Notes under the pieces: generated by a model | The model's database searches: none | Seen by the model: the letters and a program-made list of their open reading frames with translations, nothing else | Told to the model about the DNA's origin: nothing | Made by a program: the position numbers and the translations under genes | Shown here: in pieces, positions 1 through 18,900 of the stretch | Position numbering within the stretch: position 1 is the stretch's first letter | How the letters are laid out: every line of letters starts with the position of its first letter | Source: Thiotrichales bacterium HSG1 | Lineage (GTDB): Bacteria > Pseudomonadota > Gammaproteobacteria > Beggiatoales > Beggiatoaceae | NCBI GenBank assembly: GCA_030378125.1 | Contig: JAUCGN010000011.1 | Location: forward strand, 1 to 18,900 | DNA: 18,900 nucleotides | Direction: 5' to 3'

Positions 1-75
1 TAGGCCAAAACTATAGTTTTTTACATTCTGAAAAACATGATGACTATACAAAAATTTGGGATACAATTAGTGATA
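1..75 (+). repeat. 75-bp exact copy of part of the REC-PAS-PAS gene (gene fragment)
   Basis: These bases are identical to 10910-10984 and in the same orientation; identity stops abruptly at base 76. The copy encodes residues 299-322 of the REC-PAS-PAS protein (second PAS domain, starting GQNYSFLHSEK and ending DTISD), after which the frame runs into unrelated sequence and stops within a few codons. It has no start codon inside the window, so it is a gene fragment. A diverged paralogue would not normally keep 75 identical bases including third codon positions. A recent duplication, a rearrangement or a chimeric join at a contig edge is therefore more likely. The repeat may extend further left, outside the window. 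Confidence 0.95.
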
Positions 76-1064
76 GATATTTTTTCTAACAAATAAGCTA
101 ATAACAAAGCTAAAGCTGGTGAAGCTGGCAATAAATAATGTAACTGTTTACCACTTATCATAGAAAAACTAATAAAAACTGGTACAAACCACAATAAGCA
201 AAAAAGCACTCCTTTCTCATTCCGATATTTAGGTAATTGTGACAAGCTATACCATACGGGTGGCCAAAACGATAATGGAAACAGTGCCAATGGAAACCAA
301 ACCAAATACCACCAAATAGGTTCTTGATGAGCGAAGGAATTAACTAAACGATTAGCAGTTTGGCTAAAAAAGATGGCTTGTTGATATTCTTCTCCACCCT
401 GTAAACCAGCTGGAATCGCCCAAATTAAGGCAATTATAGCTCCAATAATGACACTAGCGAACAAGCCCAAATAATGTTTGCGTAAATTTCTTGTAGATGA
501 CCACCAAGGAACCAATAATGCGATGGGCAATAAATGTAATAAAATTACCGGGCCTTTAGTAAGCACACCCAAACCAATCACTATACCCAACAATACCCAA
601 CGCTGTTGCAAAATAGCAATTATGCCAATTAAAGTAAAGAAAGTCAGCAACATATCAAACATAGTGATGCCCGCAAAAATACACCACAACAAATTGCTCA
701 ATAAAATAAATGGAACCCAACGAGCTATTCTTGGTTGTTTAGGCCACAAAATACGGGCTATGTGGGATGCTAAAAATAAATTGCCTAAAGAAAATAATCC
801 TGGGATTAATCTTGGCCACCACTCACTTACTCCAAACACTGACCAACCTGAGTTTATTAGCCAGAATAATAAGGGAGGTTTATGGTGATAAGCCTCACCA
901 TTTAAATAAGGTACGAGCCAATTACCTTGTACCCACATTTCCCACGCCACAGTTACATAACGTGTTTCATCAATTTGGATTAAGGTTCTACTAACAATGG
1001 GAATAAGAATAAGAAGTAGCCATAAGCCAGCCCATTCTCCAAAGTAACGCATAGTACATCGCAT
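76..1064 (-). CDS. ArnT-like family 39 glycosyltransferase, 3'-truncated by a junction
   Basis: This is an integral membrane GT-C glycosyltransferase of the ArnT/PMT (GT39) family. These enzymes move a sugar from a polyprenyl-phosphate carrier to lipid A or another envelope acceptor on the periplasmic side. After an N-terminal membrane segment comes the conserved first periplasmic loop with the Asp-Glu pair (D32 E33 in IDETRYV) and the stretch GEAYHHKPPLLFW (residues 56-68). Many further hydrophobic helices follow. Native sequence ends near residue 330; the last 17 or so codons of the open frame (to base 21) are antisense of the PAS fragment. Family members are usually around 500 residues or longer, so the C-terminal part is missing. 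The start ATG overlaps the LAB_N stop by one base (TAATG) and is preceded by AGGA; M5 is an alternative start. It is the last gene of a four-gene minus-strand operon. Confidence 0.85.
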
Positions 1065-10017: not shown

Positions 10018-11127
10018 ATGTTTACAGAAAAAACTCCTTTAATACTAGTAGTTGATGACGATATTTTTATACGAGGTATGCTAAAAAACTTACTTAAGGG
10101 TAAGGGTTATAGTGTTGTCGTGGCGAGTGAAGGAGTTAATGCTCTGAAAGAATTTTTACGTTGTTCTCCAGATTTGGTATTAATGGATGCTGCGATGCCA
10201 GTTATGGATGGCTTTGTTGCATGTTCAGAATTAAAAAATTTACCCGGTGGAAATGATGTTCCGGTCATTATGATCACATCATTGGATGATGAAAATTCCG
10301 TTGATAAAGCTTTTGCAGTTGGAGCAGCAGAATATATAAATAAACCAGTACATTGGCCAGTATTAAGACATCGAGTAGAAATTTTATTACAAGCTCGTTT
10401 TGCAGACATTGCTTTAAGAAAAAGCGAAGCTAGATTCCGTGGTATTTTTGAACAAGTTGCAATTGGTATGGCTCTATTGGATATGGATGGTAAAATTATT
10501 CACAGTAATTCAGCCCTTCAAAATATGTTAAATATAGGAGAACAAGAAATATATGGTAAACAATTCAACAGTTTATTTCATTTTTATGATTCTGAGCTAG
10601 AGAAAGAGTTACATCAACAAATGTTAGATGGTTTTCGTGAACATTATCAACTAGAAAAGCATTTTTTTAATTCTGAAATTGTTTGGGTTCGTTTAACCAC
10701 TTCTATAGTTAAAAATGATGTAACCAATTTTTTTGTACAAATAGTTGAAAATATTACGAAACATAAGATGGATAAAGTTTCTCTTAACATTTCCAATAAG
10801 GTGTTTGAAACAACTTCAGATGCTGTTTTGATTACTAATGCTAATGGTAATATTATTAATGCCAATCGATCTTTTTTATCTATAACTGGTTATAAATACG
10901 AAGAGATTTTAGGCCAAAACTATAGTTTTTTACATTCTGAAAAACATGATGACTATACAAAAATTTGGGATACAATTAGTGATACTGGTTATTGGAATGG
11001 TGAAATATGGAATCGTTATAATGATGGTAAGGATTATTTAGTCTGGGCTTCAATAAAAGCTATTCATGGAGATGATAGTAATATTACTCATTATGTTGCT
11101 GTGTATTCAAAAGTTGATTCTATGTAA
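10018..11127 (+). CDS. REC-PAS-PAS signalling protein without an output domain
   Basis: Residues 7-125 form a receiver domain with the acidic triad D13-D15, phospho-acceptor D57 (LVLMDAAMPVMDG) and K109 (INKPVHW). A short linker (FADIALRKSEARFRGIFEQ) leads to a first PAS domain (about 138-255) and a second (about 262-368; ITNANGNIINANRSFLSITGY, later YLVWASIKAI). The protein ends seven residues after THYVAVY, where such proteins normally continue with a SxITERK-like linker into a GGDEF, EAL or kinase module. Either the protein works by protein-protein contact or the gene has lost its 3' part. Residues 299-322 are encoded by the segment repeated at 1-75. AAGGA lies 11 bases before the ATG. It is convergent with the minus-strand block to its right. 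Confidence 0.88.
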   Translation: MFTEKTPLILVVDDDIFIRGMLKNLLKGKGYSVVVASEGVNALKEFLRCSPDLVLMDAAMPVMDGFVACSELKNLPGGNDVPVIMITSLDDENSVDKAFAVGAAEYINKPVHWPVLRHRVEILLQARFADIALRKSEARFRGIFEQVAIGMALLDMDGKIIHSNSALQNMLNIGEQEIYGKQFNSLFHFYDSELEKELHQQMLDGFREHYQLEKHFFNSEIVWVRLTTSIVKNDVTNFFVQIVENITKHKMDKVSLNISNKVFETTSDAVLITNANGNIINANRSFLSITGYKYEEILGQNYSFLHSEKHDDYTKIWDTISDTGYWNGEIWNRYNDGKDYLVWASIKAIHGDDSNITHYVAVYSKVDSM

Positions 11128-16795: not shown

Positions 16796-17683
16796 TTATT
16801 TGTAATTTATCAAACGTTTAGGAGCAATTTTACCATCTTCTAAAACTCTTCCAATCCCCAAAAATAACTCTCCAAGAAATAATTGTACTAAACCGTCAGC
16901 TGGAGCTTGGGAAATTTGTACTGCTTGACCTTGTTGAATATAATAAGCAAGTTCTTTTGATAATTCGATCTTAGGCCAATGAGAAACTGCTGTTTGCATA
17001 GGAATTAGTAATTTATCTAATTCTTCCGTGTTAACTTGTTGTTCTAAAGTAGCATAATCTATCATATCCCAATAATTACCCACCCCAATTCTATGTAAAC
17101 GACTAACAAAAGCCCCGCAACCCAACTTTTCACCAATATCTTCTGCTAAAGTACGAATATAAGTTCCTTTGGAGCAATGAACTTTTATGGACAGGTGTTC
17201 TTTAATAAAATTTTGAATTTCAATGTCATAAATAGTAATATTACGAGACTTACGTTCTATAGTCTTTCCTTGTCTAGCCAACTTATATAAAGGTTGACCC
17301 TGATGTTTAAGGGCCGAATACATAGGAGGTATTTGTTCACTAGAACCTATAAATGATTGAACAACTTGCTCAATTTGAGGATAGGTAATATTTTCAGTAG
17401 AACGTGTATTTAAAATTTCACCTTCACTATCTCCAGTCAGTGTTGTAGCACCTAAAGTTAAGGTAGTTTCATAATATTTGTCAGCCATTAACAGAAAGTT
17501 AGATATTTTAGTAGCCTCTCCCAAGCAAATGGGTAATAATCCACTAGCAAGTTTATCCAAACTGCCGGTATGACCAGCTTTACGGGCCTTAAATAGATGC
17601 TTCACTCGTTGTAAAGCTGCGTTAGAACTTATGCCTACTGGTTTATTGAACAGCAAGATTCCATTTATATTTCTTTTAACCAT
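16796..17683 (-). CDS. truB: tRNA pseudouridine(55) synthase TruB
   Basis: TruB converts U55 of the tRNA T-loop to pseudouridine. The catalytic aspartate lies in GHTGSLDKLASGLLP (D43 from the chosen start); the usual residue after it is proline, here lysine, while the rest of the motif is intact. Further family blocks are LLFNKPVGISSN near the N-terminus, IPPMYSALKHQGQPLYKLAR and CSKGTYIRTLAEDIGEKLG; the C-terminal part looks like a PUA-type domain. Length, 295 residues, is normal. ATG 17683 is preceded closely by AGGA; an in-frame TTG at 17695 would add four residues. It lies 16 bases after the COG2836 stop codon, suggesting co-transcription. It is not in the common rbfA-truB-rpsO-pnp order. 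Confidence 0.95.
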   Translation of the reverse strand: MVKRNINGILLFNKPVGISSNAALQRVKHLFKARKAGHTGSLDKLASGLLPICLGEATKISNFLLMADKYYETTLTLGATTLTGDSEGEILNTRSTENITYPQIEQVVQSFIGSSEQIPPMYSALKHQGQPLYKLARQGKTIERKSRNITIYDIEIQNFIKEHLSIKVHCSKGTYIRTLAEDIGEKLGCGAFVSRLHRIGVGNYWDMIDYATLEQQVNTEELDKLLIPMQTAVSHWPKIELSKELAYYIQQGQAVQISQAPADGLVQLFLGELFLGIGRVLEDGKIAPKRLINYK

Positions 17684-17699
17684 TATTCCTACCAATATA

Positions 17700-18181
17700 T
17701 CAGTGTTGGTGCGGCATGAATAGCATCATTAGACCAAATAAAATTATTATTACCCCAGCAACTCTACGAATTACAATATTCTGGGATAGTTTAGTAATCA
17801 ACTGTGCGGTTGTTCCTATTGCTAATAGCATTGGCAAAGTTCCCAGTCCAAAAGCGAACATTAATAAACCACCTTCCCATGCACTTTTTGAGACAAATGC
17901 AAATGATAAAACTACATAAACCAATCCACATGGTAGCCAACCCCAAATTAAGCCAAGTCCTAATGCTTGCAATGGATTTTGTACTGGTAAAAACTTTTTC
18001 CCTAATGGTTTAATTCGATTCCAAATTAATGTACCAGCTCGTTCTAAAATGGTTAGAGCTTGCCACCACGCTCCAATATATAATCCCAAAGCAATCATAA
18101 ATAACCCTGATACCCATTTGGCAACTACACTTGGATTTGCAAATGGTAACCATTGGGTAAACTGTCCTCCAAAAAAACCAA
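17700..18181 (-). CDS. TauE/SafE-family (COG2836) membrane protein, C-terminal part
   Basis: The open frame begins at the junction near 18181 (FFGGQFTQWLPFANPS) and ends with MLFMPHQH. It holds about four membrane helices, including GLGLIWGWLPCGLVYVVLS with the conserved Pro-Cys-Gly and a final helix VAGVIIILFGLMMLF. This is the C-terminal two thirds of the sulfite exporter TauE/SafE (COG2836) family, whose members often lie near cbb3 oxidase assembly genes. The internal ATG at 18098 is not the real start: homologous sequence continues upstream to the junction and then stops making sense. The missing N-terminus is the plus-strand fragment 18694-18900. The two together give a protein of about 230 residues, normal for the family. 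The real substrate is unknown. Confidence 0.88.
18174..18181 (-). other. Rearrangement or chimera junction with 8-base microhomology
   Basis: On the minus strand TTGGTTTT here marks the switch from mauG-like coding sequence to the C-terminal half of the COG2836 gene. The same octamer is at 18893-18900 on the plus strand, the last bases of the window, where the N-terminal half of that gene ends. Joining the halves through the octamer gives a continuous frame GILVGFFGGQF. Confidence 0.85.
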
Positions 18182-18532
18182 TGAATATTTAGCTTGTTCT
18201 TCCAAAGTTATAGATTTTCCATCCCAAAATAAAGCAGAAATAAATGCGCTATTCCATATAGTTGGCGTATTGCGAGTACCAATTTTTCCATTTGTTATGG
18301 ACGTTTTTCTACCATCATCACCTCCAGCAAATACGTTGTGACAAGAGTTACAAGATATAGTTCCAGTACGAGAAAGACGAGGATCAAAAAATAAATTTTT
18401 GCCAAGTTCTATTTTATCTTCCGTTTGAGGGTTGTTAATAGGTATAGATGGACTGTTTGGTAGAGCCTCCCATTGACTGGCCATAACTGGAAAATTAATT
18501 ACTAACATTAATATGTTATAGTATAATTTCAT
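18182..18532 (-). pseudogene. MauG/di-haem cytochrome c peroxidase, N-terminal fragment cut at the junction
   Basis: A signal-like hydrophobic N-terminus (1-18) is followed by KIELGKNLFFDPRLSR (40-55), the haem-binding C61-N-S-C64-H65, NVFAGGDDG and GTRNTPTIWNSAFISALFWDGK (86-106). These are hallmarks of the first haem domain of bacterial di-haem cytochrome c peroxidase/MauG proteins, periplasmic enzymes usually of 300 or more residues. Native sequence stops after LEEQAKYS (near residue 117); the frame then reads out-of-frame COG2836 sequence to base 18125. The second haem domain is absent from the window. In the native genome it should continue beyond the junction, divergent from the COG2836 gene. 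Confidence 0.85.
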
Positions 18533-18693
18533 TACAATATAATAAGTAAATTTCGCTAAGTCTTGAAAATATGGAAAATTTGACCTAAATTCATAGGTAT
18601 TCGGGATATTTTTTTTGCATTATACATCACTACCATAATATCGCAACAGTTGTTTTATTTCAAATAATTGAATGATATTAAGATTAACAAAAT
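18533..18693. promoter_or_regulatory. Divergent intergenic region between mauG-like and tauE-like genes
   Basis: This AT-rich 161-base region probably holds both promoters. An inverted repeat ACCTA-AATTCA-TAGGT spans 18583-18598, overlapping a TTGACC hexamer (18580-18585). No -10 at a good distance was found for it. No strong ribosome site precedes the plus-strand ATG at 18694. Confidence 0.3.
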
Positions 18694-18900
18694 ATGACAT
18701 TAACAATATTATCGGCCTTTATTGCTGGTTTAGTTGGTTCCACTCACTGCATTGGCATGTGTGGTGGTATTGTTGGTATGTTAACGATGGGTTTACCAAA
18801 CGATATACGCCAATCTTATTTACGTTTAATCCCTTATTTGTTAAATTATAACATTGGACGTATTACTAGTTATGTCATTGCTGGCATATTGGTTGGTTTT
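18694..18900 (+). CDS. TauE/SafE-family (COG2836) membrane protein, N-terminal part
   Basis: The 69 codons from ATG 18694 to the window end encode a first helix with GLVGSTHCIGMCGGIVG (13-29, including the conserved Cys19 and Cys23). NYNIGR-like sequence and a second helix ending GILVGF follow. The conserved HCxGMCGG motif identifies the amino end of COG2836 proteins. The last codon is in frame with, and directly adjacent in the family to, FFGGQF at the start of the minus-strand C-terminal fragment. The gene therefore reads on past the window or, in this assembly, stops at a break point. Conserved cysteines here and in WLPCG of the other half suggest a metal- or thiol-related role, which is inference. 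Confidence 0.88.
   Translation, partial: MTLTILSAFIAGLVGSTHCIGMCGGIVGMLTMGLPNDIRQSYLRLIPYLLNYNIGRITSYVIAGILVGF

Follow-up and report, generated by a model that had tools for sequence, protein, structure and literature searches.

The right end of contig C18 was found to carry a tauE-like membrane-protein gene divided into two inverted halves, with the 5' part of a mauG-like gene between them, an arrangement that is most likely an amplification chimera and no feature of the organism. The window analysed is the whole of this contig (18,900 bases), so that position 18900 is a contig end, as had been supposed in a preliminary description that placed the break at the window edge. The assembly to which the contig belongs (G000) comprises 2.22 Mb in 457 contigs and is 63% complete. 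Among named organisms, its truB gene was closest to those of Candidatus Halobeggiatoa sp. HSG11 (87% identity) and of three Thioploca MAGs (81%), so the host belongs to the large sulfur bacteria of the Beggiatoa group. The artefact suspected in the preliminary description was most likely the right reading, although its microhomology and its native gene order were overstated there, and the end of C18 is to be taken as an assembly warning and not as new biology.

A tauE-like gene divided between two strands

The 5' part of the tauE-like gene (18694-18900, plus strand; 69 codons, open at the contig end) matched positions 2-55 of the 199 in the PF13386 (DsbD_2) profile (E 1.9e-17). The 3' part was located on the opposite strand (17700-18181, minus strand), where 17703-18179 matched profile positions 54-198 (E 8.3e-34). 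Both matches were above the family cut-off, and the whole domain (positions 2-198) is divided between them. An intact truB gene (16796-17695, minus strand; PF01509, PF09157 and PF16198) adjoins the 3' part.

When the 3' half was searched in 40 genomes, G000 included, matches were obtained in 33 of them. In all 19 relative loci compared (L005-L023), with identities to the halves of 52-90%, the two halves followed each other on the same strand and in the same frame; the overlap was 6 bases in 18 loci (the GF codons) and 3 bases in L017. Together with four same-genus relatives, the halves from C18 formed a single alignment of 226 columns, gapless between the halves and made up of 69 + 159 residues, with GF common to both. 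The earlier claim that the two fragments are parts of one membrane protein (labelled COG2836 there) was thereby borne out by adjacent profile regions and contiguous loci, and the same loci and alignment confirmed that joining the fragments keeps the frame.

In the contig, 0.7 kb separates the ends of the halves, which lie on opposite strands; the native distance is presumed. The octamer TTGGTTTT at the contig end (18893-18900, plus strand) makes a second, inverted appearance at the join with mauG, on the minus strand of 18174-18181 (as AAAACCAA in the contig). This octamer, common to both halves, represents one stretch of tauE that occurs twice in the contig.

The truncated mauG-like gene and the inverted join

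The segment between the tauE halves contains the 5' part of a gene for a mauG-like di-haem peroxidase (18182-18532, minus strand, 117 codons). Its CCP_MauG match covers positions 2-81 of the 149 in PF03150 and ends at 18182, leaving the domain incomplete, in agreement with the earlier statement that a cut mauG fragment separates the two halves. The frame continues into tauE DNA as far as a stop at 18125 (ORF 18125-18532), and the mauG open frames of the three closest relatives have 340, 345 and 341 codons. The 3' part of mauG had no match in the longer contigs of G000, a weak negative result from a search with no positive control in an assembly that is 63% complete. Elsewhere in this assembly, a weak second PF03150/MauG-like match was noted (L003, G000:C209:2623-2934), below the family cut-off and with two internal stops.

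The sequence over the mauG break was inspected in seven relatives and gave a readable line in five, two of them of the same genus. These two read EEQAKYP-FVDS (CCA-TTT-GTG-GAT) and EEQAKHP-LVDS (CCA-TTA-GTA-GAT), and C18 at the break reads TCA TTG GTT TTT. As mauG of the same genus continues with P-(F/L)-V-D-S, the native mauG would have supplied only TTGGT, or at most TTGGTT, and the exact stretch common to mauG and tauE is likely to be 5-6 bases, TTGGT(T). Two bases further back from it, ATATT also matches, and a looser pairing at the join can be written as ATATTnnTTGGT, with 10 of 12 positions matching. The preliminary description had taken the full octamer as the microhomology through which the pieces were joined; it is indeed present at both tauE ends, but on the mauG side the same-genus genes speak for 5-6 bases and eight are unproven.

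Inverted 8-base matches no more than 800 bases from the cut were obtained at 1288 of 39,000 random cuts (3.3%), so the octamer alone is weak evidence and was rejected as a stand-alone argument. The strength of the case for a split gene is the protein evidence, not the octamer.

A second chimeric join at the left end of C18

The left end of C18 is a second chimera, in this case direct and between sites 10.9 kb apart. Bases 1-75 (plus strand) are an exact direct copy (75/75 identical) of 10910-10984 (plus strand), joined into an ArnT-like gene (76-1064, minus strand) that is cut near codon 330, the open frames of relatives having 524-526 codons. The native source of the 75 bases lies inside a gene at 10018-11127, labelled as response-regulator/PAS-like from its translation by eye. 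At the DNA level, the homology of four relatives with the ArnT-like gene begins at window positions 67-76, at about codon 330; at the protein level, three of the four can be aligned as far as residue 343-345, with low similarity by eye. The two sides of this join would share at most about 4 bases, GATA.

Self-copies at contig ends across the genome

The ends of 84 of the 457 contigs, C18 among them, were scanned for copies of sequence from the same contig. Self-copies of at least 50 bases were detected at 4 of 168 ends, or 3 of 166 without C18, compared to 17 of 16,800 random cuts. In contig C10 (L043), bases 1-118 repeat bases 2449-2566 of the same contig exactly and in inverted orientation. 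A large gene in the loop is cut at this join, as the DNA homology of four out of four relatives begins at 115-125 and their open frames of 392-668 codons (some clipped by the ends of the fetched stretches) extend beyond the cut. Judging from one relative, about 4 bases may be shared at the join. In the same contig, about 100-340 intergenic bases of the stretch 2112-2450 have many dispersed matches in genome G004 and further ones in G001 and G002, as a dispersed repeat family.

Similarity is lost sharply at the join both in C10 and at the left end of C18. Self-copies were also present at the left ends of L198 (G000:C67; 96 bases, direct) and L200 (G000:C69; 94 bases, inverted), and these are probably native repeats. 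In both, the similarity extends past the exact match, and therefore only C10 and the left end of C18 were counted as sharp joins. Short inverted matches (at least 8 bases) showed no excess, being found at 9 of 82 contig ends compared to about 11% of random cuts.

Gene order in the relatives

A native order of mauG (divergent), tauE, truB and an S8 protease had been proposed as the source of the rearranged end. This order was not found in any of the relative loci compared, and in G004, which is 99% complete, the four genes lie on four different contigs, C194 (tauE), C136 (mauG), C257 (truB) and C296 (S8 protease). Synteny was assayed in nine pairs of relative loci (four for tauE, two for mauG and three for truB) by counting blocks of at least 150 bases, the loci being 5-18 kb long and some having little flank on one side. 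Eight pairs shared one block of 0.7-1.3 kb and the ninth shared two (1.3 and 0.5 kb). In loci L065-L071, L024, L025 and L027, from relatives of the same group, almost no common gene order was seen around tauE, mauG or truB, and little beyond the single gene aligned.

With genes so reshuffled across the lineage, synteny carries no weight for or against the proposed order, and mauG, tauE and truB may have been adjacent in the native chromosome. Of the large blocks that C18 has in common with relatives, those inspected end near gene boundaries (3414, 7874, 9957, 16764 and 17687). The breaks at 76, 18182 and 18900 lie inside genes, at or near the contig ends.

Origin of the right end of C18

The features of the right end are those of an inverted chimera of the kind produced by multiple displacement amplification (MDA): inverted segments less than 10 kb apart, and a few complementary bases, TTGGT(T), as deduced from the mauG of relatives. 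Moreover, tauE and mauG are cut at one point and the contig ends at the partner point. Joins that share about 4-6 bases are shorter than the overlaps used by assemblers, so the chimeric molecules were probably present in the DNA that was sequenced.

In the course of strand-displacement (phi29/MDA-type) amplification, a 3' end that had been set free, with TTGGT on it, would have annealed to a similar site in the opposite sense about 0.7 kb away. Its extension would then have fused the 5' part of mauG, in inverted order, to the 3' part of tauE. Past 18900, the true sequence would be the tauE 3' part again, already present in the contig in inverted orientation, and this may be the reason why the contig stops there. 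In the part of the MDA study cited here (PMC1855051), 406 of 475 chimeras were inverted, 337 of these 406 joined sites less than 10 kb apart, and 93.5% of the near inverted joins had complementary bases. The same part attributes them to displaced 3' ends that prime on nearby strands, hairpin self-priming not being the main route; the geometry of C18 fits either. Direct joins more than 10 kb apart, the class to which the left end of C18 belongs, are rarer in those data (58 of 475).

The inverted amplification chimera suggested in the preliminary description is thus the best explanation, with further support from the joins at the left end of C18 and in C10, and the junctions themselves point to MDA as its cause. 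Other genomes of the Beggiatoa group were made with MDA, according to the portions of three reports cited here (PMC4971068, PMC5728499 and PMC4914600). Against a chimera, the overlap of the right end with its inverted partner is no more than 8 bases, compared to 75 and 118 at the other two sharp ends, and the native adjacency of mauG, tauE and truB was not seen in the relatives compared. Short inverted matches at contig ends were also not in excess, and of the four ends at which long self-copies occur, two resemble ordinary repeats.

A real inversion of about 0.7 kb, comprising the mauG 5' and tauE 5' segment and either fixed or carried by some of the chromosome copies in a polyploid cell, is unlikely. 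It would agree with the strongly shuffled gene order of the lineage, and a mixed inversion would branch the assembly in the same manner. Large sulfur bacteria are thought to be polyploid, and a single Achromatium cell is reported, in the part of the source cited, to harbour copies that differ in synteny (PMC5587575), although the genome copies of Marithrix are described, in a report likewise cited in part, as highly conserved (PMC4971068). However, such an inversion would break two genes at a site where 5-6 bases match and would leave the chimeric left end of C18 and the join in C10 unexplained. A fixed form would also run into the 3' part of mauG, where the contig instead stops, and that part was not found in G000, which weighs little at the completeness of this assembly.

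That the inversion is real but confined to some of the many chromosome copies in a polyploid giant sulfur bacterium is more doubtful still. If this were the case, cut genes could persist beside intact copies in one cell, joins at microhomologies could contribute to the marked loss of gene order seen across the lineage, and the observation would bear on genome shuffling in polyploid giant bacteria.

A chimera produced by ligation or PCR while the library was made, or a misjoin by the assembler, in place of MDA, is improbable. False joins at contig ends would likewise be expected from these sources, and the genome is fragmented, with some contig ends in repeats. Nevertheless, an assembler would need a longer overlap than the few bases shared at these joins, and no bias would be expected from ligation to inverted segments 0.7 kb (right end of C18) and 2.3 kb (C10) apart.

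Finally, a site-specific invertible switch is scarcely credible and was rejected, for its imperfect 15-base inverted arms (18174-18188 and 18886-18900, 87% complementary) lie in coding sequence and are accounted for by the tauE and mauG frames of relatives, and 8-base inverted matches are common by chance. The assembly shows the segment bounded by the arms (18174-18900) in one orientation.

The amplification chimera preferred here amounts to a warning on the draft genome, in which contig ends may carry false gene fusions. Three genes are cut in this way in C18 (tauE, mauG and the ArnT-like gene) and one in C10, and claims on gene order made from such drafts require the support of reads.

Comparison with known systems

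Like other DsbD_2 proteins, the tauE-like product spans nearly the full PF13386 profile when its halves are taken jointly, but the copy in C18 consists of two inverted parts. Similarly, the mauG-like product has the N-terminal part of the CCP_MauG domain of di-haem peroxidases, including CNSCH, whereas the remainder of the domain beyond position 81 is missing. The coexistence of rearranged copies in a large sulfur bacterium, described for Achromatium in the cited part of its report (PMC5587575), could offer a parallel; there, however, the differences concern gene order and transposable elements, whereas in C18 the break runs through two genes, at a match of 5-6 bases beside a contig end. There is also a likeness to the inverted MDA chimeras, which in the cited part of that study (PMC1855051) also combine an inverted join over less than 10 kb, a few complementary bases and an intervening deletion. 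Those chimeras were demonstrated in reads against the known genome of E. coli, whereas C18 is an assembled contig whose junctions suggest MDA.
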